Positions 17,056 through 50,943 of a DNA stretch of 64,000 nucleotides are shown here, piece by piece; position 1 is the stretch's first letter, and every line of letters starts with the position of its first letter. The position numbers were made by a program, and so were the translations under genes. This DNA comes from Anaeramoeba flamelloides (lineage: Eukaryota > Metamonada > Anaeramoebidae). The notes below the pieces were generated by a model. That model was not told the DNA's origin. It saw nothing but the letters and a program-made list of their open reading frames with translations, and did not search any database. The stretch is taken from NCBI GenBank assembly GCA_027625915.1, contig JANTQA010000045.1, forward strand, positions 3,737,719-3,801,718, read 5' to 3'.

Positions 17056-17141
17056 TCGTTAGGTTTTCCAGAATTCAAAAGAATAGAGTAAAATCAAAGA
17101 TTTTACGCAATTCTTTTGAATCCTGGAAAACCTAGACACGA
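17056..17141 (+). mobile_element. modular hairpin, type Y, single
   Basis: Inserted in the LINE between GGGCAG and CAGAGAAAATG. Begins TCGTTAGG and ends CCTAGACACGA. The whole 86 nt can fold: AGGTTTTCCAGAATTC pairs with GAATCCTGGAAAACCT, and the inner GTAAAATC pairs with GATTTTAC around a 3-nt loop. The uninterrupted LINE at 52377-52395 shows the site without it. Confidence 0.75.
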
Positions 17142-17315
17142 TCACAGAGAAAATGATCCAAATCTTCAATGATATCCAAATCTTTATTTATTTTACACAA
17201 TTGACAAAATTGTGATTTATTTTTGTTCATAAAATAAGAATATCTATTAAGATAATTTGTATAATTTCTTAACTTTAGAATAGAAGTTGAACCCTTCCAT
17301 TTTAAATATTTTTTG

Positions 17316-17404
17316 TCGTTAGGTTTTTTTTAATTTAAGAAATAAACAGAAAATTTTAATAAATTTTCGGTTTATTTCTTAAATTAAAAAAAACCTAGAC
17401 ACGA
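17316..17404 (+). mobile_element. modular hairpin, type Z, single
   Basis: Inserted between ATTTTTTG and CTGTTTGTTAA of the LINE; copy A at about 52550-52570 has the empty site. Begins TCGTTAGG, ends CCTAGACACGA, with arms of about 36 bp (AATTTAAGAAATAAAC with GTTTATTTCTTAAATT, one or two mismatches) and a loop of a few nt. No target duplication is obvious. Confidence 0.75.
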
Positions 17405-17874
17405 CTGTTTGTTAATATTTCCCTGTATCAAAATTATTTTCAAATAATTTTGTACTTTCCAACTTTAACTATTTTTTAATTGATTAATTCGGTAAACTTC
17501 GAGTTCAGATTCTAATTCAAAAATATTTTCATTTAATTCTTTCTATTCCAATTGAGAGAGTCTATATCGCAAGTTAATTCTTTAATTATTTGTTTTTTTT
17601 CATCAAAGTTTCAAAAAAAAGAAATTAATAATAAAATAATTTTAATCAAATATAATTTATTTTAAATAGTTATAATTGATCCAAATTTAGAATTTATTTT
17701 AAAGTTAGAATTTAATTTATTAAATTGTGCTTTAATAATATTATGTTTATTATTATCTTTGCCAAAAAAAATATTAATATATCAAAAAAAGAATTGATCT
17801 TTAGAATTTAATTTGGTTCTTGTTAATCAATAAATTAAATATCCTACTTTGTATTTTTTTTTAAAAAAAAAAAA

Positions 17875-19697
17875 TTAATTTTCTTCTTTGGCTTCAATCC
17901 TTATTGGCTTTATTTGTTCATCTCCAATCTGAGAAATAGTATTGCTTTCTTTATCTTCTTCTTTTTCTTCTTTGTTATTCTCATTTTCTTCAATTTGGAC
18001 ATCTTCCTCATTTTCTTGATCAACATTATCATTTTCACTTTTTTCCTTCTTCAAGTCATCTTCTTTTTCTTCTTCTTCATCTTCTTTCTCGTCTTCTTCT
18101 TCTTTTTCTTCAATTTGAATGTCTTCCAGATTTTCTTCATCAACATTATCGTTTTCACTTTTTTCCTTCTTCAAGTCCTCTTCTTTTTTTTCTTCATCTT
18201 CTTTTTCTTCTTTTTTCTTCTCATTTTCTTCAATTTTAACATCTTCCTCATTTTCTTCATCAAAATTGTCATTTTCTTTTTCATCATCATCATCATCTTC
18301 TTCTTCTTTATCTTCTTTCTCGTCTTCTTCTTCTTTTTCTTCAATTTGGACATCTTCCTCATTTTCTTCATCAACATTATCATTTTCACTTTTTTCCTTC
18401 TTCAAGTCATCTTCTTTTTCTTCTTCTTCATCTTCTTTCTCGTCTTCTTCTTCTTTTTCTTCAATTTGAATGTCTTCCAGATTTTCTTCATCAACATTAT
18501 CGTTTTCACTTTTTTCCTTCTTCAAGTCCTCTTCTTTTTTCTCTTCATCTTCTTTTTCTTTATTCTCTTCTTCTTCCTCTCCTTCTTTATCCTCATTTTT
18601 TTCTTCAATTGTCACATTGTCTATATTTTCATTTTCTTGGGTATTTTTTAAATTTTGATTTTTATTCAATTCAATATTTTTTTCATTTTTATTTGTATTA
18701 TCAGTCTTTTTTTTTTTAATTGTTTTTTTTTTTATTAATTTATTTGATTTTTTTTGATTTATTTCTTTTCCTTTTTGTAATATCTTTTTTTTACCTCTCC
18801 CCCTTCCTCTTCCTTTACCCTTGGTTAATGTTTTTTTAGTTCCAGCTACCTTGGTAACTGTTTTTTTAATTTCAGTAACCTTGGCTTTATTTGTGCCTCT
18901 AACTCTCCCCTTACTTTTAAGTGTGGGTTTACTTAAAACAATTTTGGTGATACCTCTACCTTTGCCTCTGCCTTTTACTCTTCCCCTTCCCCTGCCTCTG
19001 CCTCTGCCTCTACCCCTGCCTCTTCCTCTGCCTCTGCCTTTTCCTTTGATCTCTCTAATTGAGGTCATACTTACTGATCGTTGTCTTAAATCTCTTGCAT
19101 CCTTTGGTAAAATTTTTCTTCTACTAAATCGTTTTTTCGATTTTTCTTCGTTTGGGGTATTTCCTTTATTTGCCAATTTTTTATGTGTTGTATTATTCCC
19201 AGAATTAATTATAGTTGATTGTTTAGTTTTTTTCTTTGGTATTCTTTTTCGAATAATTTTTTTTTTTCGATCAGATTTGTTTGATTTGGAAACAGTTTTT
19301 TGGCTTTTTGATTTTTCATCTTTTGGTGTTTTAGAAATATGGGTTGTAGTTTTTGGTGTTGACCTGGTCTTTTGAATGCGAATATTTAGCTTTTTAGAAC
19401 CAGTACCAATAGTTTTTATTCGTTTTTTTGTTGTTTTTGCTTTGATTTCAACAACTGTCTCTTTTCCTTTTACTTTTTCTGCTGTTTTAACATTTCCTCT
19501 TCCCTTTCCCCTGCCTCTTCCTTTTGCTCTTCCTCTTCCTCTTCCTTTGGTTAATGTTTTTTTAGTTCCAGCTACTTTGGTAACTGTTTTTTTACTTCCT
19601 GTGGGCTTTGGATTTGATTTTATTTTTGCCTTTCCTCTGCCTCTTCCTTTTGATTTTCCTTTTCCTTTTCCTCTTCCTCTTCCTTTCGAAGTTTTTA
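17875..19697 (-). CDS. RG-rich / acidic repeat protein, 5' exon not found
   Basis: The frame is open on the minus strand from 19737 to a TAA at 17875, but has no ATG until about 19066. The upstream start is probably on a separate short exon joined at a TAG acceptor near 19698. The encoded chain (about 606 aa visible) has three zones. First come Lys-rich stretches with two blocks of alternating Gly-Arg/Gly-Lys. Next is a Lys/Thr-rich middle in which KKTVTKVAGTKKTLTKG occurs twice. Last is a C-terminal third of Glu/Asp/Lys repeats (LKKEKSENDNVDEEN, then IEEKEEEDEKED). The acidic part contains a 351-bp (117-codon) near-identical duplication. RG-rich plus acidic tails are typical of nucleolar, RNA-binding or chromatin proteins. 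That role is inferred, and no folded domain is visible. Confidence 0.6.
18010..18560 (-). repeat. 351-bp tandem coding duplication
   Basis: The block around GTCTTCCAGATTTTCTTCAT at 18121 recurs at 18472, exactly 351 bp apart, with almost identical flanks over 150 bp. The reading frame is preserved (117 codons). Shorter repeats of about 40 codons sit inside it. Confidence 0.8.
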
Positions 19698-20425
19698 CTA
19701 TTTTATTATTCGTTCCATAACGTTTGATAAAAAGTTTTTAAAAAAAAAAAAATGTTAAGTAAATGAATAAAACAAATTTTTTTTTATTAGACATAGGGGA
19801 TTTTACATAATTTGGATACCTATATATATATATAAAATTTTAATTTTAATTTTTGAGAGCTATGCTTGAATAATTTGTTATACAGTATTCAAAAATAGTC
19901 TTTCGAAATCGAAAAGTTTTGATTTGTAGATTTTTTATTTTATAATTTATATTACACTGTTTGTATTTCATAATATCGATCCTTTAAGGGAGTAGCAACT
20001 ATAAAGTCAAAATTTTACCTTTTTTACCAATTTCTAAATCGGATCATAAAAAAACTGTATTGTTTACTTTCGCAGAGTACAGTTAATTTTTAGTATTCAA
20101 AGCACTTGATTCAAAATAATTAATATTAAATTTTTTTTCACAAGTAAAATTAAATGCCTAATAGGATGCTAAGTTGATTTTTTTCTTAACAACTTTTTGA
20201 AATGTTTAATGATTTATCTTTTTGTCACTTATATCAATATTCTACTGTGGCATTTTATTTTATGATTGAAAAAAAAAAATTAAATGAATTTATTTTAAAA
20301 AAAACTTTTTAATTCATAAAAACAAACAATAAACCCAGTGAAAGTAAATAATTACATTTTTCTGATCCCAATTAAAAATCGGTAAAAAGGTAAAATTGTT
20401 GACTTTTGGTATTACACTCTTCCTA

Positions 20426-20937
20426 TATAGTAGTGAAAAAAATACCGGAAATGAAAAAAATCCTGGACATGATTTTTAAATTGTGAATATTAGCAAAATC
20501 ATTGTTTAATTTCTTTTATTTTAAATCAAATCATTTTTTTATTTAAGAATCAAACTTTTAAAATTATAACCCACCCACTTATTAGAGTGATGATTAATCA
20601 AATTACACTTGTTCCAAAACACCATTCATTCAATCAAAAAAACACGAATAAAAATAATCTTTTTCCAAATTCATAGTAAGCCTCTATAAAACTAGATTGT
20701 TTTTTCAAAAAAAGTAGATCGACTTTTGCTATCAAACAATTAATTGAGTATTCTTGAGACAGCCTATTTTAATGAACTTTGGATAGGTTTATTACTACAA
20801 TTCATAAAAAATTTGGTTATTTATAAAAAGGATTTGATTGAAAAGAAATGCAATTACACATCAGTTTTCCGAATATTCACAATTTAAAAATCTTGTCTGG
20901 GATTTTTTTTGTGTCCGGTATTTTTTTCAATACTATA
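20426..20937. mobile_element. MITE family M1, copy 2 (best preserved ends)
   Basis: 512 bp with inverted ends TATAGTAGTGAAAAAAATAC and its near-perfect complement TATTTTTTTCAATACTATA. Only one mismatch lies in about 23 bp. The TA-rich ends suggest a TA target, as in Tc1/mariner-type MITEs. No coding capacity. Confidence 0.8.
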
Positions 20938-21904
20938 ATTTAACTTTCTCTTAAAATTTAATCGTGGACAATAAGAGTTAGATCAAAAAACTAGAGAGAG
21001 ATCCAGAAACTATCTTCAGATCTTTCATTTTGTATTTAGCTTATTGCAAAAAATTTTGAAATTTAAGTTGGTACGTTCTAAATGAATTCTTATGGTACAT
21101 TACAAAGACCAACCTTTTATATTAGTTAAGGTTAATACGATCTTTTGTCAACAGATTAAAAGATATTATTTTTTACAAAAATTGTTGTTTATTGGCGTTT
21201 TTATTTTTTGTTCTACTTGAAAATGTCACTTATTAAGTCCTTAAAAATACATCTAAAAAGATATTAATTCAATTACTTTTTCATATCATTGAGTAATTAA
21301 TATTTTGCTATTAATTACTCAGTGAAATCAAATAAATTTACCAGAATCATTACTATACTTCATTACAAGGTTCTTATTAGTTGGTGGGAATTTACAAAAG
21401 AACCAAAAATAAAATATAAATTCTCAGAAAAAAACATCTTTTTTGTCCAAAATAATTATTTTACTCCACAGATAAAGGATCCGAAAAAACCTTAACTAAC
21501 TTGAAGAATTAGCTTTTGTATTGTTTATTGAAAATTCATTCGGTGACTCCATTCTTAAACTACAGTTTTTAAGTTTAGATTGGGTGAACAAAATCAATTA
21601 ACTGAAGAAAATTAAAAATCTTGTTTAACTTTTGTTTTCCCAATTGTGAACTCTCTTTTGTTCAGTAAAAAAAAAAAAAACACATTTTTTATTTAAATCT
21701 ATCAGATATTTTATTATTATCAAAGTAAACCATTTTCCAGTCAAAGTACCCCAGTTGTGGTGGGTGAATTACACGTGTTCAAAGGGTTTGAATGGATATT
21801 AGAAGAAAAATATTTTTATTTTGGAAAATTTCAAAATTGAAAATCATTTTTTCACATTTTTACTTTTTTTTTTTCAATTTGTTTTATACCCCTAATAAGT
21901 TTAC

Positions 21905-22330
21905 AAATTTTTTTTTATTGCAAGTTTGAAAAGTTATTTGGTAAAAACGTGTTATTCTCATGTTATTGATAAAGCAAAAATGATTTCGAGAAATGATTTT
22001 GATTTATTTCTATTGGAATTTTCTTTGGATCTTCAATTCGGAGATCAAAATGAACATTGTTGTTTTTCTCAATATATCCCTAAGAATTTTTGTTTTTCTA
22101 TTTTTATGAAAATCTATTGATTTATTAGATTTATTTCAGGTGGATCAACTATTCTTTGATTTGTTTATTATTCTACTTATTTCTTATTTAATCTTCAAAG
22201 TTCATTTATAAAAAATATTTGATATATGAAAAAAATGTTGGTATCCTTTGACAGAAACAAAGTTTTATAGTTTTTGGAAAAATGTCAAATTTAGTAAAAA
22301 AAAACTTAAAATATTAAGACATCAATTTTA
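21905..22330 (+). repeat. dispersed repeat R5, compact copy
   Basis: Matches separate blocks at 14440-14580, 15290-15350 and 16590-16700 in the same order. A 64-codon ORF at 21926-22120 lies in it and is not supported as a gene. Confidence 0.45.
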
Positions 22331-22505
22331 TAACATGCTTTGTAAGCTTAATTTTATATATATTTGCCAATTCCTTATCATTTCAAATTATGTTGTACAA
22401 AAGAAAATATTATTAATTTAGTCTACTTATTACTAAAGTTAATAAAAAAGAACTTGAAAAATTAATCAATAAATGCAAATTAAAAATGGTTCAATGTTTA
22501 AAATC

Positions 22506-22507
<2 letters not shown>

Positions 22508-22547
<40 letters not shown>
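22508..22547. repeat. (TA)n microsatellite
   Basis: A run of about 18 TA dinucleotides after GTG and before TTTAAAG. Confidence 0.9.
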
Positions 22548-22548
<1 letters not shown>

Positions 22549-22719
22549 AAGAGTAACAGGATTAATTCTGTCTGTAAAATTCAAAGTAACAAAATTCAAA
22601 TTTTATCTCACAGTTCAAAAAGGAAGTGTTAAATTTAAATTGGGAAAATTTTTATTTCCAAGTGCTTTTGCAAAGATCTTGGGTTTTTTTCAATCTTTCA
22701 ATTAATTTGAAGGAAAAAA

Positions 22720-23574
22720 TTATTGAGAACCAGAATTTAAAATTTTCTTTTTTTGAAGCTGAAAAAGGCAATATTTCTCATTTTGGACTAAAACATTGAG
22801 AATTAATTCTTGACAATTTGGTTTGGGTTGTGTTGGTATTATTGGAAAACCTTCATTAAAGAAAACCCAAAGAAATATTTTTTTAAAAAAAATATTGAAA
22901 ATGAAAGGCAAACATAAAATAATTTGTTTATATGTTTTTTTTTGTTCGATACATGTTAGAAAGGGAATTGTTTCAATCAAGGTTGTTGTTTGAAAAATAA
23001 TTATTTTTCAAAGTGAAAATAAAAAGAAATCTTCATTTGACAAAAGAAAAAACTCCAAAAACACAAACACAAACAATAAAATAAAAAAAAAAAATTAAAT
23101 TTTTGAAAAAATTAAAAAAAAAACTTTGTTGATTGTCTAAAAGGAATTCATACCATTTTGAGCTAAATTGGTTTTTAGTTTTTGTTTGTGTGTTTGGTTA
23201 TCTTTTTTTAATTTTTCAAATTCTTTTGAGTTCTTCTTTCGTGATTGGCTGCTTTGTTGGCTGAGTTTTTGTTTTAAGATTTTTACTTGGTTTTCCAGTT
23301 TTTTGATCTCTTCATTATTTTTGTTTGGGCTTTGAAAGTTTAATGGTGAGACAAATAATCTTTCCTCTTCTTTATTAAAAGTTGCACGAAGCTGTTCCAA
23401 ATCAAAATCATCAAGATAAACTGAATCTGAATCTTTGTAATCCGATCCTTTTTCATTTCCACCAAGCTGTAGTAACTCATCTTCATCTTCAGAAAGTGAG
23501 AGCTCTTTTTCTTTTACAAACAACTGTGTGTCAAGTTCAAAATCGTAATCTAAAGTTTCAGTTGTGCTTGTCAT
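22720..23574 (-). CDS. small acidic/coiled-coil protein, 2 exons
   Basis: Predicted join (minus) 23574-23154 and 22850-22720, 183 aa. ATG at 23574. Exon 1 gives an acidic Ser-rich head (SLSEDEDELLQLGG, DSDSVYLDDFDLEQL), then a basic coiled coil (about residues 88-138) with heptad leucines (KKLENQVKILKQKLSQQ). Exon 1 ends at a consensus-like GTATGA. The acceptor AATGAAG at 22851-22852 keeps the frame and continues as NG-FPIIPTQPKPNCQ to a stop at 22720. Without splicing, exon 1 would end five codons later at TAG, so an unspliced 145-aa form is possible. No family recognised. The acidic-Ser head hints at phosphorylation by CK2-like kinases (inference). Confidence 0.6.
22851..23153 (-). other. 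303-bp intron of the coiled-coil gene
   Basis: GTATGA at the donor, TTTAATGAAG at the acceptor on the minus strand. Phase 1 on both sides. The intron interior is A/T-rich with poly(T) runs. Confidence 0.55.
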
Positions 23575-24377
23575 TTTTAGGCAACTGTTTATTTATTTTT
23601 TTTTATTCAAATTATGAAACGAGAAAAGAATAGGGTAAAAATAATAATAAAAAAACAAAAAAAAAGAAAGAATTGTAAAATATGTTTTGGAAAAAAATGG
23701 AATGTTTTCAAAAAATTGAAACCTCTGAGATTTGAGTACACTATTTCTGTTGTTTTGTCGGTTATGTTCAAATTTTATTCTAACTAATCAAAAAAGAAAT
23801 TTCTGAGTGTGGATGATTAGATAAAAGAATTGTTCGAAGAATCAAGAAAATACAAAAACTTGTTTTTGAAAATCAATCAAATTTTTAAAGTAAATTGTTC
23901 ACTTGATATTTTTGGTTTGGAATTTTATGTTTGTAAACTAAACTCTGAAAAGAATAGTTTTTTTGATTTGTTTTGTGTTTCATTTTTGAATTGTTATTCA
24001 TAAAAAAAAGTGAGAAACAAAAAAAAAAAAGTAAATAATTAATTTTGAATTTTAATAATTTAAATTGAGAATATTTGTAAAAGGGAGAAAAACACAAGTA
24101 TTTTGAGAAGAAATAAGAATGATAATCTAGACTAAATCTTTTAAGAGTTAGGAGTGTCTTTTTAGATTTTCAAAAATTGTTATCTATACTTGTATTTGAA
24201 TTCTAAATGGGAAAAAATTTTTACTTCCTTTTTAATTTTCTTGAAAAAATAAAAGCCACAAATTGCAATGTACTTCTTTGTACACCCAATTTAGAGTAAA
24301 AAAAAATATGGAAAAGGAAGTGAAAATATTTCTCCATTTAGAATTCAAATATGAGTAAGAGAATCAAGAGGATTGTA

Positions 24378-25139
24378 TTAAGAGATTATCGTCGCCATAT
24401 ATTTTTCTAGAATCAAAGTATGTTGTAATTGGTTTAAATGATATTATTATACCATGACTTAAAAAGCTCGAAAAAATCTATTATAAATCTTATTACACAA
24501 TAAATTATTGGATTTTTTTAACTCATGATCATAATTAAAAATTGTTTATGTTGGAAATTTTTTTTTTTAAATTCCTTTTCCGAATTTTTACAATTGAAAC
24601 AAAAAATAAGAGTATTCCAGTATTTAATAATTCATCTTCAGAACTTACAGAAGTGACTATTTTTATAATTTTTGAATTTCAAAGATTAATAATAAGATTA
24701 TCAACCGAAAAAACCCAATGGCTGATTAACTTTTGTTTTTTTTTTGATAAAGCTAATTATAGCATTAATATGTTACCTATATAAACAAAATAATTTGTCA
24801 AAAGGATGATAAAGTTAATTATTTCATTTTTTATCAGCTAATATACATTTTTTAGCAAGTAATCTACATTTCTCCAAAAATTTAAGAAAGATATTTTGTG
24901 ACTTTGGAGTATGAATATTGATAATTCAACCTTTAAATTTGTAGTGAAAGGCAGGTTTTTTTTGAAATTGTTGGGGTTTTGGGTTATAAATAGATCATTT
25001 TTAATAAAATATTCTAACAAATAGTACTTTTAATTGATTTTTTAGAGAAATTTGAAATTTGATAGCACTAATATGATTTTTATCCAATAATAACAAACTT
25101 TAATCTTAGGCTTCTCCTTTGTTGGCACTAATCCCTTAA
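24378..25139. mobile_element. TTAA-flanked MITE family M3, copy 1
   Basis: 762 bp between TTAA at 24378-24381 and TTAA at 25136-25139, with inward AGAGATTATCGTC and GCACTAATCCC ends. It aligns in opposite orientation to 43895-44654 (shared TTTCTCTATAATCAAAG-like and AAGTATGTTGTAATTGG blocks, and AATTTAAGAAAGATATTTTG inside). TTAA target duplication is the hallmark of the piggyBac superfamily, but no transposase is present. Assignment is by the target only. More diverged than copy 2. Confidence 0.65.
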
Positions 25140-25680
25140 AAAAAAATACTTAATTTTAAATCTAACTCAAAATTAAAAATTTAACAATTTTGGTGTTATA
25201 TAAAAAATAAAGATTTCAGAGTTTGGTAATTTAAAATTTAAATTTATACAATTTCACTTGTGCTCCTAAATATCGTTATTTATGGTGCCTGTAACTTGTG
25301 ATATATTCTTTTGACTGTGTAATAAAATTTTTCCGTTCTACAATAAAGTTTCAATTAAATTATACAACATTAGAATAATGAATTATCATTTTTTTAAGAA
25401 TTAATTTTTCCCAATTTTTTTCGGTAAAAAGATCTGATAATTTTTTTTTAGGATTTTAGTATCAAAAAAGAAAAATAAATTTCCCAAAACATTTTTATTT
25501 TGACAAAAACTAACTTTGAATAATTTTTAATAGTTATGAGAAATAAATAACCTTGAAATTTTAATTCTCAATTACAAAATACAATAAAAATAAATCAAAT
25601 AGTGAATCCTTGAAGATGAAAAAAAAATTGATTATTTATTGTATTCACTAAAATTTAGAAAGTTTCTTTTTATAAAAAAA

Positions 25681-25840
25681 AATATTACAGTTTTACCAAG
25701 TCTACCATAAAATTTTAAATAATACAAAATTGATTTTTCTATTCTTATTTTCCATTTTCAAAAAAATCTGAAATAAGAATAGAAAAATCAATTTTGTATT
25801 ATTTAAAATTTTATGGTAGACTTAGAAAGGCTGTAATATT
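25681..25840. repeat. near-perfect 160-bp palindrome
   Basis: Arms 25681-25750 and 25771-25840 (70 bp each) are reverse complements with about four mismatches, all in positions 11-17 from the outside. The inner 53 bp (from AAGTCTACCATAAAATTTTA to AATAAGAATAGAAAAATC) match perfectly. The 20-nt loop is AT-rich. A MITE of foldback type or a hairpin-RNA source is possible. Confidence 0.85.
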
Positions 25841-27239
25841 TTATATTCAAATATCAAAAGTTTAAAAAAATTACTAATATTATTATAATCAGTTATTTCA
25901 AATAGTTATTTTTTTTTTCTCAAATATAGAATGATTAATTTGAATTCATTTTATTTGTACGAAAATCTTTAAAAAATTCAAAATTAAAAGTAAAATATAT
26001 TGATAAATTTAATCTTTGAATTATTGTTAACCAATCAAAAAATTAAGATTAGGTAAATAATTATTGATCAATAATAATCAAATTAAAAAGAATTTTTTTA
26101 AATTAGACTTTAAATGTTTTAATATAATAAAAAAGTTTTTAAGGAGAATTTTTAATTTGACTGTTAATTTTTTTAACGATTTTATATATAATAAATTATC
26201 TTAATTATCAACTTATGCCATGATTTAATATTAAAAACCATAACATATTTAAAAATTCTGATAAAATTCAGCCTTTTTTTGAAATAATAAAAATAATTCT
26301 TTAGATTTTTTTCTGAAATTAAAGAAATTAAAAAAATTTTAAAGGGTTACTTCTAATGAAGAAACAAAAATGAGGAAATTTTTCTGATTTTAATATTTAT
26401 TATTTTGTATTATTTTAATTTAGTATCAGAGTTTTTTGGAATTCTTTTTGGATAAACATTTCAATAAACACCAATATTTGATAAAAATGTTGTATTTTTT
26501 TTTGATAAAAATCGTTTATTCTAATAAAAAATTATTGGTTGTTGGTAACAAAAATACCATTATTGGCGAGTGTGAAGGTATTCTTGTATATGTAGTTTGG
26601 GATTTTATACCATAATTGTAAAAAAAAATAAATAATCAAAAAATGGACTTTTATTACTTATTTAACATATTCAAAATTTTCGATTAACTTTTTTTCGTTA
26701 AAATTGGGTTTTGAACATATTTTTTATAAGTCTTTAGTATTAAGGATTTCAGAAATTGTTTATTCATCCCTAATTAAAAAAAAAAAGAATGTTATTCGTG
26801 TAATTCAGACATGTTACAGATGTTGAAATTGTTTTAAAAGTGGAAAAAAACTGATTAAACAAATATTTAACACATTATAACATGTGATAAAAAAAAATAA
26901 ACAAAATTTCTTGCCTTTTTTTAGTTTTAAAAGGTGCTTTAAAAGTTTTTAACATTTTCTATTGGTGTTTTATAATATAAAACCTGATTAATAATGTGTT
27001 ATAAATTAAGGATATTGAAAAACAATAATACTAAAAAAAAATTGCATAATACCTCTAGCTAAAATTGTTTCACCATTATAAAAATATGATAGAAAAATGA
27101 TTTAAATTGTAAAATTGTAATTAAAAAACATTTTTTTGACGAATTGTAATAAAATATTTGAAAATTTTATTTTTTAAAAAGATTTTTTTATATATTAAAA
27201 TTTGATATAAAAATTTCAAATATTTTAAAATAATAAAAA

Positions 27240-27600
27240 ATAAACTAAATTTACAAAAATTTGGAAACTGTTTAAACAGTTGAAAGAATAGTAATATTTC
27301 ACTTTAAATTCAATTTGGAAATAATTTTGATTTTACAAACTATTGAATTATTTGTCTTTTTTGTTTTGTTTTAATTTTTTTTTTTAGTTATATAATTCTG
27401 TTTCCTACAATCTGGATTTTTTTTTTGATGGTTTGTAGCAGGTTAGTGTTCTTTTTTTTTTAAACGAAAAACCACATAAAATTAGTCCGTTATTATCTTA
27501 TCATTCGATCAATCAATAATTGTTGGTGAGATTTCAACAAATTTACAAATATATTTTTTTCCAGTTAGTTTCATTATTTTAGATATCAATTTTTTTTTTT
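27240..27600 (-). repeat. dispersed repeat R4, copy 2 (inverted)
   Basis: The reverse complement aligns with 16196-16600 over its length. See that entry for shared blocks. Confidence 0.6.
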
Positions 27601-28452
27601 TCATTTAATATTTCTTTTCTTTTATTTGTATGAAAATGATTATTTATATGGGAATTAATACTGAGTAACTTAAATGTTGTTTTATAGTAAGTTTGGAAAA
27701 ATATAATAAATTGGGTTTTATTTTACCTATTTTTGATTTTGAGTGTGTCCAATTTTTTGGAATGGGGTTTATGACATGCTATAAAATGTTAATACATTTT
27801 TTATTAAACAATTACAATATCAAAAAGATTTTTGTTAAAAGAATATTTTCTAATTATTTTAAAATTATTTTTATATTATGTAAGAATTTTTATTATTATA
27901 AAGTTTATTAATCAGAAAATAATAAATTTTTTGGAGATATCTTTGTTAATTCAGGATACAGTTTCAATTCCTAGCCATCTGAAAGTTTTAAATATCATAA
28001 TATTGTAAAATTGTGATGTTTTAGATTTTTACCATAATTGAAAATATCGCCATAATTAAAAAGCTGCTATATGATATAATATATTTTAATTAATTCAAAT
28101 CAACAAATCTCAAAAAATTGTCATAACAAATTAATAGCAATATAATAGACCACGGCTTTTTGGGCTAATTCAACAATATTTTTTAAAAAGTTAAATTTTT
28201 TACGATCAAAAAATAGATCTGTGCAAAATTAGGTATTTTTCGAAAAAAAAAAAAAAAAAAATTTATTTAATAAAAAAGCTGATCAAAATTTTTACAAATA
28301 TTATATTTTTTTTTGGTTTGATTGTAAATCCTATCGATCATTTTTGATCAACAACAATAATAAATAAAGAGAAATAAATATTTTCTTAGACAAAAGTGGT
28401 GTTATAAACTGCGTTGAATAAAAGATTTTCAAAAATTACCCAAACTTCAACT

Positions 28453-28682: not shown

Positions 28683-29675
28683 TATTAATATTTTTTTTGG
28701 AATTGTTTTCTTTTTCTTTTCTCTTTTAATTTAGTTATAAAAATTAACCTTAATTTAAAGGTTTTTTTTTTCGGTTGATAATCAAAATAGAAAGAAAATT
28801 ATTCTTTATATTTTTTCGTTATTTAACTTGTAAAGGTATATATTCACTAATAAAAAAACACAAATTTATTTTATATTCAAGTATAATGTTGAAATGGATG
28901 ATTATTTGTTTGATCATATAATTCAAAGTAGTTTTTACTTTTGTTAAAAAAAAAAATAACAAGAAAAAAATATTTTCAAAATTATAAAAAAATAACTAGC
29001 TTTTTTGGGAATTTTAATTAATTCCATACCTTTCAAATATTTGGATACACCATACCATCCTTTCAAACATTTTGTAATATTTTTAAACAGGAAAAGTATT
29101 GTAAAAGAGACAAAGATTTCGAAAATCATACAATATTTTTATTAGGTGATTTTCAAAAAAATAATTTTCTATTTGTTAAGATTTTCTTAGAATTATTATG
29201 GTTTTGTGGGTTCTCTCTTGGTTTTATAATTTTTTGAGAATATATCAGTTTTGGGTAATTTAATATAATTATCACAAATTCATTGAAAATGTTGTTATAG
29301 AATCTTTTCTCATCAAAACCTCAAATATTTGCCATTTTTACCTCTAAAGCATTTGGAGCCCTTGAAAATTTTAATACAGACGAAATTAATTCGGATACTC
29401 TCCAAATATCCCTAGTATGAAAAAAATAAAATTAAAAATTTGAAGTTAGATATAACTGATACTCTAATTAACATTTTTTATCATTGGTAATTAAGTTTAT
29501 TTACAATCTAACCAAAAACACAGAGCTCTAAATTCTTGGGACTGATGAATATATTGTTGTTTGAAGTAGGTTTTTAAAAGTCTTTAAATAAGTATAAAAG
29601 GTCTTTTTGGTATAAAAAATTCCAAATAAATGGATTGGAAAATTGAGGTTTTATTCAACTTGAAGATATTTATTT

Positions 29676-29848
29676 ACCGTCAGTTTCACTTTTAAGAGAT
29701 AAACAAAATCTTAAATTAAGGCAACAAATTTAAATTCTAGTAAAATAAATTGTAAAAAAAAATTCCTTAAAATGTTTTTTAATTTGAGATGGTTTGTGCC
29801 TTAAATTTTCGTTCACAGTTTGTGTCTCAAAAGTGAAACTGACTGTAG
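29676..29848. mobile_element. MITE family M2, copy 1 (Tc1/mariner-like ends)
   Basis: About 173 bp, ends CCGTCAGTTTCACTTTTAAG and AAAAGTGAAACTGACTGTA facing each other. Internal GTGCCTTAAATT matches the M2 copy at 50549-50744. TA-type ends as in Tc1/mariner MITEs. No ORF. Confidence 0.7.
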
Positions 29849-30564
29849 TCAAATAACAATTCGGTCTGTATTCAAGTAATTTTGAAAACTTTAAAAGTGA
29901 AACAAAGCAGTTTTGTGTTTTTAAATGACTAAGTTGTGATTACCAATCAAATTGCCTACATTACCAAAAAAACAGAATATAAAAAGATCTTTTTTATGTT
30001 GTGTAACTTTCTCATATTTTGGGAACACTAAAATAAAGAATAGAAGATTATTGTCGTACAACAAACACCTTTTAAATAAAAATATTATATTAAGGAAGTT
30101 CTTCCTTAAAATGAATAAAGAAACAACAACCAACTTTTTATTTTTTTCAATCCTAGTGTGTCAAAAAAATCAAAAGTAGCTTTCCAATAAAAAAAAAATC
30201 TAAATCTTTACAAATGTGGGTTTTTTAAAAAAATAAAATACAATAATAAAAAGCTTATTTAGCAAAACACAAACAAAACCATAGACTCGAATTTCAAAAA
30301 TAAAGTGTAAATTCCATATGAAGTTAAAAATGGAAATTAAATGGTGGTCTTTTAAATCAAGGGTTCGCCTAACAAAAAATAAAAAGAATAATTCAATTTA
30401 TTTGTCGAGAACATTCTAAAAAATTTTATTTTTTCAGAAATATTTTTTTTATTATTTTTTATTTCTTTAAATACTCTTTCTTGATTAGCAACAACAAAAA
30501 ACTTTTTTTATTCTTTTCTCAAAAATACTAAACAAATTTCTTGGTAAATTCGTTAATTAACGTG

Positions 30565-32982: not shown

Positions 32983-33350
32983 CTGCCGTAAAGTGTCGTA
33001 GAGTGCCGTCAAGTGCCTAGGTTTTCTTGAGGTATAATGTTTTATTTGTTAAGCCTTCTAGGTTTTTTTTATGGTTTTCTATTTTATTTGGGTAGTGTTC
33101 TAGGTTTTTTTGAGTTTTCAAATAAACTGAATACTCGGGCTAAGCTAACGAAAACTATTGATTTTACAAATAAACAGAAAACTCAAGAAAAGCTAAAAGT
33201 GGTTTTTTTTAATTTTTGAAATGAAAAGAAAATCTCTCCAATTTTCTTTATTTTTCTGGAAAAGCTAATGGTGGTTTGTTTTACTTTTTGAAATAAACTG
33301 GAAATTTCTTAAATTTTCTGTTTATTACAAAAATTAAAAAAGCCTAACGG
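32983..33350 (-). mobile_element. modular hairpin cluster (X-Y/Z-Z) with 10-bp repeat end
   Basis: The left edge is four tandem 10-mers of the type AGTGCCGTAG (32983-33021), leading into CTAGGTTTTCTTGAGG. Then come successive inverted-repeat modules that include the pairs AAATAAAC/GTTTATT and TTTTCT/AGAAAA. The right edge is GCCTAACGG, the complement of the CCGTTAG left end seen at 42258. The order of modules matches the cluster at 42633-42936 read in reverse. Confidence 0.7.
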
Positions 33351-33370
33351 AAAAACAATATATAAAAATA

Positions 33371-36369: not shown

Positions 36370-36830
36370 CTTCTTTTTTTCATTGAAAATATATATATTA
36401 AATCATAAAAGAAACCAGTAATAATCAAAAAATAAATATGCTGTTGGTTTCTTTAAGTTCGGTTCTAAAAAATTAAATTCAGTAAAATGAAGGATCAAAT
36501 TAGAAATTTATATCAAAAAATCAAGTTAATTTTTGAAAAAGTTTTTTACATCAAAAAAAATCAAAAAAATGAAAAATCGAAAAAATAAAGAAAAATTTTA
36601 AACAAATTTCATTATTAATAATTTTAAATTTACTTTAAACTTGTGGATTTTTTCATTCAAAATTAATTTAAACTGGTGTATATTGTTGGGTACTATGTTA
36701 TACGTTTCATTTAAACAAGAAGAAGAAAAAGTATGGATTATATTTTGAGATACCAATTATTGTTTTTAAATAATAACCTATTGATCACTGCTTAATAAAT
36801 AATTTTTACACACTTAGATTGATACAAAAG
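36370..36830 (+). repeat. dispersed repeat R1, copy 1 (MITE-empty)
   Basis: Aligns with 50225-50890 (TTGGTTTCTT, AATGAAGGATCAAATTA, AGAAGAAAAA, TTGATCACTG in order). At about 36680 it has GTGTATATTGTTGGG where the other copy carries MITE M2, so it is a paralogous empty site. Confidence 0.65.
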
Positions 36831-37608
36831 AGTTTTTCTGAAAAATATTAGTCTTTTTGTTTGTTGGGTTTTTTTTCCGATTAAAATTTGAGATTAGGAG
36901 GTTGTGGATTTTGATTGACAAGTTTGTTTAAATTTAGTTGAGTTAGATCTTTAATGAGGTGATTGAACTTGGAAGGTTGTAGAAAAATTATTTGATTAAA
37001 ATAATGTAGAACAAATATTGCTTGGTTCAAAAAGTACAAGGTTTTACTGAACTGTATATTTTGTTTAAAAACAAATTAAAATTTTTAAACAGTTATTAAA
37101 AAAAGAAAACTCAGAAAAAAGAAAAAACAAAAGTTATTTACAAAAAAAAACTCAAAAAATTTGTCAAAAAACAAACAAAAATTCAACATCAGTCATTAAA
37201 AGAACTGTTCAAAGTGTGTTTTTTAATTGAGCAAGATCGACTTTTTGTAGTATTTTAACAAGAGACTTTTTCGAGGCTTTTTAAACAATATATACTTTTA
37301 TGATTTATCTTTAATATCAATAGACTTTAATCATAGACATACCTATGGATACCTTTAATCACTTAAAAGAGAATAATTATGTCTCAGGAGATCACAAATA
37401 CTCTAGTAAGAGCATATAACCTATGTTTCAAATTCGGCCTGTGCTTTTTTTTTTATCTTGTCACATGTAACATCTAATTTCCACGTAATAGTATACTCAA
37501 GTTTAACTCAATTTTTAAGGTCAAATCAGTGATTTTTTGAGTAGATTTTAAATTAGGAATGAAATTTGTTCATGATTTTTATATTTTGATAAATTTTAAT
37601 TTATTTTA

Positions 37609-37734
37609 TTAGACTAAAATTTCTTCTTTTGACATATTCTTTTTAGAAAAACTTTTTGCAATTTGTTCATACTTTTCTATAATTTCTTTCAAGTCGTACA
37701 ACTTAACAAAACCAAGGCCCAATTTACTTAATGT
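37609..37734 (-). pseudogene. coding-like fragment, 41 codons
   Basis: The minus-strand open frame ends at TAA 37611-37609. Its composition is protein-like (includes KLGLGFVKLYDLKEIIEKYE and KSFSKKNMSKEEILV), in contrast with the neighbourhood. It lacks a start, and no convincing splice acceptor or upstream exon is visible. Best read as a remnant C-terminal exon. No family recognised. Confidence 0.3.
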
Positions 37735-38435
37735 TTAAATATAGTTTTTTCGATTTTTTTGGATCTCTGAAATGTGAAAGTCTTCAAAAGAAAAAAAAGA
37801 AAAAAGTGTTTTTTAATAAGATACAATAGTTTTACCAAGAACAAATAGGTTACTTAAGCTAATACACAATTAATTACCAACCAAATATTGTCAGGCAGGA
37901 TTGAATTTTCAGAATCTCCAAGTATCTCTCAATTCTATTTTACTGAAAAAGTTCGGAAATTCTTTTTGGTAAAGTAAAAGGAATAAAAATAGTTGGTTAT
38001 TCTTTTTCCTCCTTAAAATGAAATTGGTTTAGGATACTGGGATTGGAATAATAAGTAGGTAAAATATTCTCACTTCACTTCCTTTTCTATTTCTCTTTTT
38101 CTTTTTCAAAATTACGATAGTTTTAAAGAAGGCCGTGTACTTTATGTCTTTATTTTAATTGAAAAATTTGAAAATTCAATGTAAATTTATCCCCATTTAT
38201 TATTCAAATAACAGGATAGAAAAAATAAACTCATTAAATATTTGATTTTTCTGAGGATTATTAATGAAAGAAACAAAATATTCGCTGAAAAAACGAAGAA
38301 TTTATTTTTCCAACTTTCGATTTTTTTTTTTACAAATTAGAAAAAGAAAGATGTATTCCCAATTCTTTTTCAGAAAATTAGAAAAAAAAAACAGAAATTT
38401 ATTCCAAAAATATTTTAGTCTAATTTTTTGAATAT

Positions 38436-38515
38436 ATAAGGGTGGAGTTTTTAATTTCTATTGTTTGTCCTAATTCTTGATTTTTTATTGAGAAATAAAA
38501 TATTTGAATTCTTTA
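38436..38515 (-). mobile_element. LINE 3'-end relic
   Basis: GGGTGGAGTTTTTAATTTCT and TTGTTTGTCCTAATTCTT match the 3' end of the LINE at 52160-52205 with many substitutions. Only about 80 bp survive. Confidence 0.5.
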
Positions 38516-40055
38516 AAAAAAATAAAAAACAAGTAAAAAGTTTTCTCAGCTCTACATTGATCTATTTTGATTAATCTTGAATTTAGTTTCAGAATAATAA
38601 TTTGTATCAAATAAATTGGTTTTTTTTTTTAAAGAAGATTCTTGAACAGTTTTGTCCTTTCTCAAACCCACGATAGCAAATCATTAAATGATTTTATAAC
38701 GAATATTTTTCCCACATTTAAAAAAATGAATCTTAAATTCTCATGACTGTTACAATCCTAATATTTGTTTTTTCCTCTTTTAGTTTGTGTTTCAACGTCG
38801 ATCACCAGGTTTATATTTGCTCTAATGTTGGAAATATAATATTTTTGCTTTTCTCACAAAACTTCAGAGAAAAATCGGATTTTCTATTCGAAAACAGGAA
38901 AAGGATTTTCAAGTTTACAAATCTTTTTTTCTCAGGTTCTTGGGCAGAAAAAATAATTCAAATTTAACATTTAAACTGTAGGGATCACTCTTTAAATAAA
39001 CTTTATGAGAAAATTTACATTTTTCTAATTAGGAACTAACATAAATAAGATTTCTTTTTTTTTACAATAAAACTTTTTAAGCGAAGAAAAAGAGTAACAA
39101 AAGACTCATTTTTGGTATTTGCTTTTTTATTACAATTTCTAAAAAGTTAAAAGTTAAAAATAAACTCTTTAAAAACAATTTGTGTCAGATGTATTTCCTT
39201 CTGTAAAAAAGATCAAGGTCCAACAGAATGCTGAAGTTTGTTTATAATTCCTCAAATAAGTCTTGAAAATATTGAGATTGTGGCAAATAGATTTCCAAAA
39301 AAACAAGTAAAAATGGTTTGTGACCTATTATTAGTAAAATCAATAGTTTTGGGAATCAACAATAATCCAAGACAATCTACCAAAGAACACTTTCATTGTT
39401 ATAATAACTAACTTTCGTAAAAAAGATATTTTGGTTATAAACTCAAATCAAAAATCTTTATTTGAAGAAAAAAAAGGGGTTTACAAAAAAATTACTCTTT
39501 TAAATTCGAACAATTCCCTCTCCCTACTAATCGTATAAAAACTACTTTTTTGTAATCTAGATTTTTCTGGTGCAATAAACAATACAAATTTAGAATTAAT
39601 TGTTGAGAAGTTTTTTCAAAAAGTATTTAATTTTCAACTTTCAAGATTTTGGAAAACAAAATTGCTTTTCAAATCAAAAATAATTTTTTCAAAAGATTTT
39701 GAATGTTGATGTCGAAATTGGAACATAGAATTGCCCAAAAAAAAAATGATTAATTATAGTGTTGGGACATTAGTTCTGGAAACAGAATGCTTAACGATAA
39801 ACTATTTTCCTTTGAAAAGTTAATTCTTGAATAAAAATTGCCTTTGAGGGTAAATTTATTAAAAGAGTGCATTTTAAATACCTGATTTTAAATAAAGACT
39901 GGTTTGTTTTTAATTAATATAATTATTTTTTTCTAAATTGTTGAGGTTTCTACATATTTTCTTTTTTTTTTTTTACCTTTCTTTGTTTACTTTTTTTGAA
40001 AACAAAAAAAAAAACCGATTTTTAAATTTCATACAAATTAGTCTACTTTTCATAA

Positions 40056-43000
40056 ATGAGTCTCAAGAAAAAGCAACGAGCAATGTCATTTCTACCCAGA
40101 ATCCTCAAGCGTAATAAAGACAAGAAGAAACATCCAAAAGTGCAAAAGTCTCCCAAAAGAAGGTCTTCTTCTGTTTATGCGAATGTCGAACAAAGGGCAA
40201 TTGCAAGACTTGATTTTGTTCAATGCCATTTGGAAGAATTGAAAGTCAGAAAAGAACGTTTGTTCAAGAGCCATACTCAGCGATCACCAAAATTACATGA
40301 AAAATTAAGAACAACTCAGGAAAGGGTCTCTGCTGAAGAATTGGAAACCCAAAAGCTCAAGTTGGAATTGGTCTTTTTACAAAATTCCATACAGGAGCTG
40401 CTTACAAAGCAAGAAAATGAAAAGAAGCAAGGAAACGAAGTCGAAGTCGGAGTTGAAGTGGTAGAAGAAGAAGAAGAAGAAAAACAAAAAGAAAATAACT
40501 CCAAAACAGAAAACGAAGCAGAAGTAGAAAAACAAAAAGAAAAACAATTAAAAACAGGGACAAAAACAGAAACAGAGACAGAAATCGGGACAGAGACAAA
40601 GAAAGCAAAAAAAATCGTTGTCAGACAGGAAAAAGTGAATAGGGTCGAATATTTGGAGAGGTCTATTGAAAAATTAAAAAAGAGCGACCAAAAAGAGAAA
40701 TTACAAGAATGGTTTGTGGTTGAGAAAACCAAATTCAAAGAACAAACTTGTGTCACGAACAATTTATTAAACAACTTGTCTCAATTGAAATCTGCTTTGG
40801 AAAATGTGAACCAAGAAAACAAAAAGTATTTGGAGAAAATGACAAACTCTAAGGAAGGAAAAGAAAAAATGATGATCCAAAACCGCCTATTTGAGAGATT
40901 CAATGAAGAATATCAAAATATCAAAAGAAAGAAACAGAAAATCCAGTTTGATATCAAAAATATGAGGGCAATTAAAACAGATTTTGTGAAAGTCATGACG
41001 AGATCTAAAGAAATAAAAGCCAAAATGAAATTAGAAATGCGGGAATCTCAAAAAATTGAATTCAAAATCAATAAATTGAAAGAGCTATTGGATTTAAACG
41101 AGAAAAATCTCTCTTCTTCAGATTTTGACACAAGCCCATTAATATTTGATTCCAGTGACTCTGATAACAATAGTGGAATTCCAAGCAACATCAACAATAA
41201 CAATGTTAGCAATAATGAGAGGGGTAATAATTCGATTTCTCAGTCCGAAATTACCAACAATATGCTCTCTGAAAACAAGAAAATCTCAAAAATAAATAAC
41301 TCCAATTTGAATCAGGACGAAAAAGCAAATAAAAATAATCCTTTGAATGAGAAAGTAAATGAAAATGAAAATGAAAATGAAAATACTAACAATAATGCTT
41401 TCAAAAGAACAAAAATAACAAAAACAAATCGAATTTCAAGCAGATCGATGGGCAATATTAGAAAAAGAAATCGATCAAAAAGCATTACTTTAACCAATTC
41501 AAATTTTCGAAGGAACAACATGAATGGATTTAGACAAAAGAATAATTATAATAAGAGGAGCCCCACAAAAAAAAACGGTTCCATCGGCTCAAGTTCATTA
41601 ACAAATCTTCGTCATGCTTTTGGCAATTTTAGTAAGGAAGAAATAATTGGTGGTCTCACGAATAAGAAATTTAATTCGATAGATGATAGTGTTATTGATT
41701 TGAAAAAAAAAAAAAATTCCCTATCTATTTATAATTATGATGAAGAAGACACCCAAATTGAATTAACCTCATTAGAAATGCTATTACGGATACCAACAGC
41801 TGTTTCCTATTTCACCGAGTTTTTACGACAGCAAATGAATTTGGAGAACATTTTATTTTTTCAGGCTGCGAAGAAATTTAAAAGAAATTGTCATACGAAA
41901 AAAGTAATATTTTTTTTTGTAATTTTTGTTTTTTATATAATGATTGTTTTTGATTTTTATACAAACCCCACTCAAAAATTTGGGTAAACACATAATCAAA
42001 AATAGGAAAAAAAAAAATTCACATTTTTTTATATTTTGAAAAACTTAATATTAAATCACATTTAGGCTACTCAGTATTAATGTTTTTAATCCAAATAAAA
42101 GAAAAATGAAAAAAAAATAAAGAGAAAAAGTAAAAATCTAAATGTGATCAAAATGATGAAATGGGTAGAACGAAAAATTTCAGATGTATTCAAAATTTTG
42201 AAATTTAGTTTTTTTTTTTTTTTATTTCAAAGGGGGGAAATTAATTTCCTCTTACAACCGTTAGTTTTTTTTTAATTTAAGAAATAAACCGAAAATTTAT
42301 TTAATTTTTGGTTTATTTCTGAAATTAAAAAAAACCACCGTTAGCTTTTCCATAATTCAAAAGAATAGAGCAAAATCTTTGATTTTTCTCAATTCTTTTT
42401 TATTCTGGAAAAGCTAGGCACTCTACGGCACTCTACGGCACTTGACGACACGATCCCATAAAAAATGATCGATATCTTCATCTGTATCTAGGTTTGAATA
42501 TTTTTTGCATAAATTGCAAGATTTTGTTTTTGTTTTGTTCTTATCATAAACATAAGAATATTCATTTAGATAATTTATGAAAATTCTTAGTTTTAAGATA
42601 GAAGTAGAGACTTCCATTTTAAATATTTTTTGTCGTTAGTTTTTTTTTAATTTTTGAAATAAACAGAAAAATTTATAAATTTTCTGTTTATTTCTTAAAT
42701 TAAAGAAAAGCAATTAGCTTTTCCAGAATTCAATAGAATTGAGTAAAATCTATGTTTTTTCTCCATTATTTTGAATTCTGGAAAACCACCGTTAGCTTTT
42801 CTTGGGTTTTCTGTTTATTTGAAAAATCAATAGACTTCACAAATAAAATAGAAAACCTCAAAAAAACCTATAACACTTAACATATAAAACAGAAAACCTC
42901 AAGAAACCCTAGGCACTCTACGGTACTTGACGACACTTCCCCTGAAACAGGAGGAGTAAAAAACCGATAGAAAAATTATAATTATTATAATAAAAATTCC

Positions 43001-46000
43001 ACAAACTGTGATTAATAAATTGGTATTCCACTGTCGTTAGATTTTTTTTTATTTAAAAGAATGGAGTAAAATCTTTAATTTTGCCCAATTCTTTTGAATT
43101 AAAAAAAAAACCTAGACACAACCTCCGAAACGTGGGGCACTATGTACCCGAATTTGTATATTTTTTTACTATTTTAGGAATTTTTTATTTTCAATTTTTT
43201 TATTTTCATTTTTTCTTTATTATCTAAAGTTTTCTAACCATAAGAGCTTTGATGAAAAATTCTTGACAAGAACAATAACTTTCGTAATTTTGATTAGCCA
43301 GATTAAAGAGTTTTTGAGTATTTTTCCTAAGGATAACATTTTTATATAAGTTTTAATCGAACATTTTTGCTAATTTTTTTTTCCATTTGATTCTGATAAA
43401 TTTATATCTTTCACAATACCAAATAAAGTGTTTTATATTTTCATAATATTGAATACAATAATCACAAATAATAAGGTATTTTACAAATTTTTTTAGGGGC
43501 AATAGCCAATATAGATTAATAAATAAAAATGTTGTGTAATAATTGTATTTTTTAAAAGGCAAATGAAAAAAGAAAAAAATAACAATAAAAAAGTTTGCCT
43601 CTAATTTTGAAATTTGGTTTATATATAAAGAAGAAAAAGCAAGCCAACAAAAAGAAAAAGTTCAAAAACAAATTCTTATTCTTAAAAATTAAGTACTTTT
43701 ATTAAATATATCTGACAAATACAGTTTTTAAAAGTAATTTATTTACTTAAAGGGTATACTTTTCCATTTAAAAGTTATTAAGCAACTTACTAAAAACCTG
43801 TTATTTTTTTAATATGGATTAATAACTTGAAAACTTTGATTTTTAATCAAATGGAAAAATCATTCTATTTTTTTTTTGATTTTTTTTTCACCTTTTAAGG
43901 GATTAGCGTCTACCAAGATGTAGTCTAGGATCAAAGAGTGTTGTTATTGGGTTTAACTACATTAGTGCTACATGGTTCAAATGTCTCTAAAAAATCAATT
44001 AGTCAAGTAGTAATATTTGTTGATCTCATCAATTAAAAATGATCCTTGTATTAGTAAAAAAACTTCAACAATTTCAGAATAAAATCTGCATTTCGCCATA
44101 AATTTAAAGGTTGAATTATCAATTTTCAGACTACATAGTTACAAAATATCTTTCTTAAATTTGTGGCGAAATGTAGATTAGTTACTCAAAAATTCATTTT
44201 TTTAAAAAAATTAAATAATTAACGAATATAGTTTCTTTTTGACAAATTATTTCTCAAATCATGGAAATATATTGATGATACAAGTAGCTTTATCAAAAGC
44301 AAACAAAACCAACCAGTCTTTGTGTTTTTATGTTGATGATTATTGTGTTAATTTTTGAAATTAAAAAATTCAAAAAATAGTAACTTTTGGAAGTTCTAAA
44401 TCTAAATTATTAAATACCAGAATACTGTATTTCGGGTTTCTATTTTTAGATTTGGAAAAGGAATTAAAAAAAATTTTTTTAAATGAAACTTTTTTAATTG
44501 TGATCATTAGTAAAAAATCTAATAATTTATTGTGCAATTAGATTAATAATATATTTTTTAGAATTATTTGAGTCATTTGTGCACTAATATCATTTACACC
44601 CAATTACAACATACTTTGATTATAGAGAAATCTATGGTGACGCTAATCCCTTAAGTTTAAAAATATTTTTCATTTATTTTTCCTTTTCGGTAAAACAGAA
44701 AGTCCAAAATACCTCTCCTATAATAAAATCAATCAAAATTTCTCAAATAATTACTTTGCTAAAATTCTTACCAAAAAGTTGAATTAATTTTACATTTATG
44801 TTATTTAAAAAAAATATTTTTTTTCATTTTCCTTCATCTAATTTTTTCTTCTTTCTTTCCGAAATTCCATTTTTTGGCTTTTTTTTTTTTTTTTTTACGA
44901 CATTTTTTACCTTATAGCAAATAAAAAAAACTGCGAATAAAATAGCCAAAATATATATATATCCTGAATCGTTTTTTGAAATTAATATAATTTCTGAGAC
45001 AAGAAAGAACATTATAAAAAATATTGAGGAACAAAAATATTTTAAAAATATGTTTGATAAGGCACAACTGGCGGTATATAACCACATGAATTTGAACTCT
45101 TGGTCAGCATTTCAAGACAATAAGCTCTATGGTAATTTAATAAAAAATTTAAACAAGTCCTCGAACAAAATTAATTTAAAACAAAAAAAATGCACGTTGG
45201 TCAAGAACCAAAATAAAACAATCCAAAAAGCCCGTTCTTTAAATGAAGAAACCAACTATCAACTCTCAAGCCGAGATCCATTAGTTGTAGTGGAGAATGT
45301 ACTTATCCAGCTCTTTGATTTAATTAATATTTATTATTGTGTTAGCTCACAACAAATCAACTTCAAATTAATTTCCCAATCAATCCCATTCCAGAGGTTT
45401 GTGCAATTGACAGCAGAATTGCAAAACATTAAATTGCAAGAATTGATTACAGATCAATACAAGCTCCCCTTTTTTTTAAATTTATATAACTGCCTAACCT
45501 TTCATTCTTTAATTGTCAGCGGGATACCCAAGGATAAGGTTTCTGCAGACAAGTTTATGAAGAATTCTGTTTACACGATACAAGGATTGCGGTTCTCTTT
45601 AAATGATATTTATTATGGCATCTTGAGAGCCAACCACGACCAAAAGCACTTGAATCCTTATTTTATAAAAGGAGACCCAAGAAAGAAATTCACCATCTCT
45701 GAATTAGATCCCCGAATCCACTTTGCAATCATGAATTTTTATTTCCCCACACACCTTCGGGTGTACACCAAAAAGAATCTTAACCATTTGCTCAAAAAAG
45801 TCACAGTTGAAACTTTGTCGCCAATAGTTGCCATTCAATCAAAATTTATTTTTTTACCAAAACTATTTGGATTCTTTGAAAAGGACTTTGGGGGGGCACA
45901 TCTATTAATGGATTGGATTTCCAAACATTTAAATAACAAGAAAACTTTTAAGAAGAATCACTATTACTCTGTAAAGTTTTTACATAAAACAATTTCAAAA

Positions 46001-50890: not shown

Positions 50891-50943
50891 TATTTTTTAC
50901 AAAATTCCTTATTTATGCTTGTTAACTTACATTCTTGCCCCTC

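Follow-up and report, generated by a model that had tools for sequence, protein, structure and literature searches.

Bacterial REP/BIME palindromes with RAYT set a fixed short motif beside variable palindromic cores and occur in strings. The hairpins described here, from a 64,000-nucleotide stretch of Anaeramoeba flamelloides DNA (assembly GCA_027625915.1, contig JANTQA010000045.1, positions 3,737,719 to 3,801,718; hereafter the window), resemble them in the fixed motif, the variable cores and the strings, although REP/BIME palindromes are bacterial. Mitochondrial hairpin elements (DHE of Allomyces, RHE of sponges) offer a second parallel: they too are short hairpins, single or in tandem, of related motif types, and those of Allomyces are reported to lack flanking duplications, an RNA intermediate having been proposed for them (PMC2800124, citing Paquin et al. 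2000). For the hairpins of this window the likeness in insertion is ambiguous by 2 bp at one of two sites; the mitochondrial elements are moreover organellar, whereas the present hairpins lie in nuclear-looking DNA and have other ends and another sequence. We describe one such family at six loci (E1 to E6), for which mobility with defined ends is well supported. In two cases what was inserted is a bare hairpin, and the target is duplicated little or not at all. All element comparisons were made within this single 64-kb window of one strain.

Occupied and empty copies of a LINE

The window holds several minus-strand copies of a long interspersed nuclear element (LINE) retrotransposon, in which Exo_endo_phos_2 scores above its cut-off and RVT_1 below its own. 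Two of the hairpins, E1 (17316–17404, a single hairpin of type Y, 89 bp) and E2 (17056–17141, a single hairpin of type X, 86 bp), both on the minus strand, are housed in a 5'-truncated LINE copy (copy A, 16815–17518, minus strand). Copy A is bounded by an exact 16-bp repeat, upstream at 17519–17534 and downstream at 16799–16814, of which the window contains only these two copies; because this target duplication of the LINE is intact around it, the boundaries of the hairpin inserts are not those of the LINE. Copies C (52110–55924, with the two domain matches given above) and D (58195–61800), both on the minus strand, hold the same 3' region as A without either hairpin. They belong to one segmental duplication, a direct repeat at 50667–61800 that is about 91% identical over 4,933 aligned bases. 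A WD40-type gene stretch at 1722–2567 also has a copy between C and D (55929–56774, 83.5%).

The three pieces of A are 92.0, 100 and 96.5% identical to C, and 87.8, 95.9 and 93.2% identical to D, in which several homopolymers have another length than in A and C, perhaps through sequencing noise. Only two gaps of 18 bases or more separate A from C, one of 89 bp (site 1) and one of 86 bp (site 2), and in A the 171 bp separating E1 from E2 match C at every base. In the LINE sense site 1 reads AACAAACAG^CAAAAAATATTT; the 89-bp gap is exact against both C and D, and these alignments show no target duplication. Site 2 reads TGTGA^CTGCCC, with a gap against D as well as the 86-bp gap against C. Here the E2 unit, TCGT...ACGA, follows GA, so that a duplication of at most 2 bp (GA) can be read. 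Two adjacent bases in which A and C differ cause the gap at site 2 to fall 3 bases apart in two alignments: the site has GGAA in C, GTGA in A and GGGA in a further LINE fragment, B, described below, differences that may be single substitutions from the GGGA form.

The sequence-only reading had suggested that comparing occupied with empty alleles would define the inserted unit; within the window, whose empty copies it had not noted, that comparison gives one whole hairpin, of 89 and of 86 bp. These pairs of copies also support its suggestion of a mobile hairpin or foldback family, here with defined ends. An RNA or single-strand step, which it had offered as one possibility, is conceivable, given whole-hairpin inserts that lack a clear target duplication.

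Ends, folds and strings of the hairpin family

All six loci listed in the sequence-only reading were found where it had placed them, and its central idea, a single hairpin family with constant ends, holds at each, although the locus at 32983–33350 lies on the strand opposite to that of the others. The exact left bracket, [TC]CGTTAG, occurs 11 times in the window. Nine of these occurrences have a correctly oriented CTAG[AG]CAC end at a distance of 60–400 bp, a pairing seen in none of 200 dinucleotide shuffles, so that co-occurrence beyond chance, on which the proposal depended, is borne out. Six right brackets serve the nine paired left brackets; the unpaired ones are at 13727 and 47993. Two details had to be amended: the right bracket at 43121 reads CTAGACACAA and does not end in CGA, and the joint said to be common to the strings, AAACCACCGTTAGC, is present exactly only twice, both times at 42 kb, the remaining joints being variants of it. 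The long form of the right bracket is, as read by eye, the short form with internal 10-bp tandem repeats (GTMRAGTRYC in sense).

An ungapped palindrome scan of the 64 kb (spacer up to 12 bp, score at least 18) returned six palindromes, every one of them a member of the family (E1, E2, and the X and Y modules of the E4 and E5 strings), and none in six shuffles. Eleven modules were delimited by eye, with RNA-fold z-scores from −12.6 to −0.7. Ten of them fold at a z-score of −3.8 or lower, with no equally good fold in 200 shuffles; the fold of the middle module of E6 (33199–33270) is not significant, 38 of 200 shuffles being as good. Because modules of types X, Y and Z (labels of the present analysis, which may differ from those of the sequence-only reading) do not align in structural register, the covariance model built from all eleven has no base pairs and served as a sequence profile only. 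Over the window it recovered, by construction, its own modules; no other match fell below E = 0.01, and the best of the remainder had E = 0.015.

Read in the sense of the LINE strand, E1 (fold z-score −12.6) and E2 (−11.3) are each a single hairpin over the whole length of the element. The terminal TCGT and ACGA are paired, GTC forms a 3-base bulge on the 5' arm, and TAGG then pairs with CCTA; beyond the bulge the stem has 36 pairs in E1 and 34 in E2, closed by loops of 4 and 3 bases, respectively. The minimal unit is a complete hairpin of 86–89 bp, TCGT-GTC-TAGN...stem...NCTA-ACGA, whose first base pairs with its last. In the strings, the bulge is filled by the 10-bp repeats, with two units in E4, three in E5 and three in E6, as counted by eye. 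Shortness, terminal inverted repeats, the absence of visible coding capacity and dispersal of copies within the window are traits shared with foldback elements and miniature inverted-repeat transposable elements (MITEs).

E4 (42633–42936, minus strand) is a Z-X-Y string, and E6 (32983–33350, plus strand) is a string of Z, an X/Y mosaic and Y with a degenerate left end. The two are colinear over their full length, as left repeats-Z-X-Y-right end (68.8% over 378 bp), and their surroundings differ. E5 (42258–42453, minus strand) has the order repeats-X-Y, that of E4 and E6 without Z. Aligned bases differ by 9–21% within types X and Y and by 14–35% between them, the latter comparison including a further 7–27 gap columns. 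E3 (43034–43121, minus strand; fold z-score −3.8) is a single hairpin with an X-like core on a Y-like stem base, in which, relative to E2, four adjacent pairs are changed on both arms with the stem kept. These paired changes suggest that patches have been exchanged between copies or re-templated from arm to arm. The picture of swappable cores and of cassettes added one after another is thus partly retained: the modules are divergent and mosaic relatives, but their order is constant, Z-X-Y in E4 and E6 and X-Y in E5. A single long parent with internal deletions, which the sequence-only reading had named as the finding that would overturn its proposal, fits E4, E5 and E6 and can fit the single hairpins, but deletion alone does not account for the mosaics, E3 and the middle module of E6.

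Recurrent sites and rival explanations

Between E4 and E5 lies LINE fragment B (42454–42632, minus strand), which matches A at 137 of 170 aligned bases with 13 gap columns (81% by global alignment; 73–74% by blastn, which treats gaps differently) and is a more diverged piece, of another LINE lineage. E4 ends exactly at site 1 and E5 starts exactly at site 2. The modules that adjoin these sites are of the same types as in A, Y at site 1 and X at site 2, and have the same orientation; for two sites drawn evenly from about 529 LINE bases, we estimate the chance of both coinciding at about 1e-5. The LINE is not colinear beyond E4 and E5, and the left flank of E4 is not recognisably LINE. A 13-bp repeat around this region, with its upstream copy from 43615 and the other just after an A-run, could be a target duplication.

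Hairpins at the same site are no more alike than those at different sites (E1 and the Y module of E4, 72/79 identical; E2 and the X module of E5, 66/79; against 72/79 for E1 and the Y module of E5, and 63/76 for E2 and the X module of E4), as expected for a dispersed family. Since likeness is not higher at the same site, repeated insertion is favoured over inheritance with the LINE, and hence some target specificity. It is about evenly balanced, in our judgement, whether the hairpins at the six loci are non-autonomous mobile elements of the foldback kind, each inserting as an entire hairpin where it finds a preferred site, the explanation we favour. Such a unit would be mobilised in trans by an enzyme that recognises the base and bulge of the hairpin, and would join its target whole, through a single-strand or hairpin intermediate and not a staggered double-strand cut. 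A preference for certain targets would explain why two LINE copies carry hairpins at the same two sites, and strings, mosaics and 5' repeats could have arisen by tandem duplication, arm-templated conversion and recombination between copies.

Local alignment to copy C, with 60 mononucleotide shuffles for each flank, gave no clear LINE homology for the left flank of E3 (score 41, shuffle maximum 43) or the right flank of E6 (40, maximum 53), and the spacer between E3 and E4 scored 30 (maximum 39). For the right flank of E5 (44, maximum 48) the resemblance is weak but falls at the 3' end of the LINE, immediately ahead of the A-run, and so is suggestive of sequence like a LINE 3' end. Another weak match to the LINE, at 51115–51285 (28% identity, E = 1.7e-5) crosses site 2 without a hairpin. 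Post hoc counts, for which the left boundaries of E4 and E6 were set at 42934 and 32985, 2 bases inside those listed, showed G enriched in the six bases to the left of the inserts (14/36, p = 2.7e-5; 11/30, p = 3.6e-4 without E5) and C as the first base to the right in 3 of 5 (p = 0.013). Upstream of E3, the stretch at 43356–43661 (minus strand) looks by eye like a possible second LINE C-terminal end (CxxC...HFIWYC); it contains no hairpin, has no Pfam match and is not matched by tblastn with pieces of C and D.

Several observations weigh against insertion at preferred sites. The clean occupied and empty pairs number two, both in copy A, and the empty copies C and D are duplicates of each other. 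In its context, GA-TCGTG...AAC-GA, site 2 lends itself to a reading with a 2-bp GA duplication; none can be read at site 1, which shows that such a duplication is not a rule. Only four comparisons, two within a site and two across sites, enter the likeness test, which is therefore weak and leaves room for descent; descent with one loss through a processed RNA is about as parsimonious as repeated insertion. A suspicion that the hairpins had diverged much less than the surrounding LINE lost support, since the divergence of the LINE between A and B (33/170) is not significantly above that of the same-site hairpins (20/158; Fisher p = 0.10). That A and B have both sites in common is hard to reconcile with a weak target preference and would fit descent, conversion or an intron-like life, and in all four cases the hairpins face the same way with respect to the LINE. 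The left flank of E6 scores 47 against the LINE, above all 60 shuffles (maximum 45), in an A/T-rich, low-complexity match away from the hairpin sites, and blastn extended 17 bp beyond the right end of E6 into the site-1 flank; E6 may therefore have a LINE link. Lastly, Pfam recognised no mobilising gene among 14 distinct open reading frames or pieces, the rest of the window not having been scanned.

The rival that survives best, though unlikely, is that the hairpins behave like introns in the reverse-transcriptase gene of the LINE, removed from its RNA through pairing of their ends in the manner of nonconventional or introner introns. Copy A would then derive from unprocessed RNA, and C and D from processed RNA in which both hairpins were lost together, one processing event replacing two precise losses. 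The agreement of sites, types and orientation between A and the diverged B fits this, as does a stem that brings the hairpin ends together. The ends, TC...GA, are not GT-AG, the boundary at site 1 cannot slide, and the first base is T, whereas 51 of 55 euglenid nonconventional introns have a purine there (PMC4770533). There is also no clear LINE flank at E3 and none on the right of E6, and none of the six loci was seen to lie across a host gene, a negative reached without gene prediction. An intron-like origin is about as parsimonious as insertion for the LINE and unsupported elsewhere. In behaviour it would place the hairpins alongside euglenid nonconventional introns and the introners of Amoebophrya, although they do not follow the end rules of the former.

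Ranking next, and also doubtful, is the view that these are ordinary MITEs or foldbacks, unremarkable in mechanism: internally deleted forms of a single long parent (left repeats-Z-X-Y-right end), in which target duplications have been lost, are tiny or do not occur. E4, E6 and E5 do form a nested colinear series, and the 2-bp GA at site 2 can be read as a duplication. Elements of this kind without duplications have precedents in the introners of Acanthoeca, reported with terminal inverted repeats but no target-site duplication (PMC9860276), and in Spy DNA transposons (PMC4482050). Against it stand the lack of any duplication at site 1, the absence here of the AAATTT target of Spy, and the mosaics, E3 and the middle module of E6.

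A shade less probable still is that these are nuclear hairpins which move as RNA, joining a retrotransposon transcript whole at fixed sites, in sense and without duplication, and are exactly removable. If so, they would be self-pairing, homing, intron-like elements outside both the GT-AG world and the organelles. Gene conversion that carried once-inserted hairpins from a B-like copy into A would account for the common sites and types but is very improbable, as the 171-bp interval between the two hairpins of A is that of C and not B-like, and conversion would therefore need two separate, very short tracts.

Genomic setting and relation to known systems

The surroundings of the hairpins look nuclear rather than organellar, given the LINEs and the Myb-like and WD40-type genes. 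The window has a GC content of 23%; matches to Myb-like, WD40, abhydrolase and DUF547 indicate nuclear-type eukaryotic genes, and Rfam at gathering thresholds matched tRNA alone (a tRNA-Pro). Other features of the window are an open frame of 620 codons (17875–19737, minus strand), lying in a stretch of extreme strand skew and made of RGRGKG and acidic EEKEDEE repeats, and several further repeats. A 760-bp dispersed element in two mutually inverted copies (24378–25141 and 43893–44654, 77%), with ends GGGATTAGCGTC/GACGCTAATCCC, looks like a separate family with terminal inverted repeats. Inverted-repeat elements at 29667–29855 and 50547–50746, with similar ends (GTCAGTTTC / GAAACTGAC and variants), are possibly another MITE family. 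There is also a long palindrome without brackets (25654–25867; 105-bp arms, 83% complementary) and a three-copy repeat of some 500 bp (2828–3332, 20423–20947 and 49394–49901; 75–81%), whose two ends match each other inverted.

Pattern searches beyond the window yielded no relatives. The 14-base right bracket matched at least 120 stretches in viral_contigs; among the 120 matches listed, none has the exact left bracket within 160 bp upstream, and the 36 with a one-mismatch left bracket have contexts that look unrelated by eye (they were not folded). A 17-mer of the 10-bp repeat had no match in viral_contigs, a 17-mer of the joint had 15, in none of which the element was seen by eye in the 60 bases before and 100 after, and the four pattern matches of a LINE piece in viral_contigs were not confirmed. 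In genome_contigs, a gapped pattern of both brackets matched once, in Gemella, in what appears by eye to be coding DNA without a hairpin. Among the papers listed by keyword searches of an open-access library, none was seen to describe a nuclear family with such ends, which is not proof of absence.

Among DNA transposons, the Spy/PHIS group is alike in its inverted-repeat ends, and Spy also in lacking target duplications, as at site 1. Spy inserts within AAATTT (PMC4482050), unlike the present sites (AACAG^CAAAA and GA^CTGCC); AAATTT is absent as an insertion target from the flanks of all six loci, and no transposase was seen among the reading frames scanned. The target duplication usual for cut-and-paste MITEs is likewise missing at site 1 and amounts to at most 2 bp (GA) at site 2. 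Euglenid nonconventional introns share stem-paired ends and non-canonical borders, but the ends here are TCGTGTCTAG...CTAACGA, with T and not a purine at +1, and do not show the CAG/CTG pairing at +4..+6/−8..−6 (PMC4770533). The introners of Amoebophrya and Acanthoeca are similar in forming hairpins from inverted repeats and in inserting cleanly within a coding frame (PMC7789003, PMC9860276); those of Acanthoeca have terminal inverted repeats without target-site duplications, and those of Amoebophrya differ in having 3–5 nt direct repeats (PMC7789003). Introners are spliced from mRNA and lie in many copies inside host genes; the hosts here are retrotransposon remnants or unrecognised DNA. Of the systems described, those that behave most like these hairpins are the mitochondrial hairpin elements, Spy and the introners of Acanthoeca.

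In conclusion, occupied and empty LINE copies delimit the inserted unit almost to the nucleotide. They suggest that a hairpin on its own can be the mobile unit in a nuclear genome while duplicating its target little or not at all. The sites common to two diverged LINE copies set target-specific insertion sharply against intron-like removal, in a form that is open to test and of relevance to introners and mitochondrial hairpin elements as well. On present comparison, the hairpins are probably best grouped with the small foldback and hairpin mobile elements, as a member of none of the named families.

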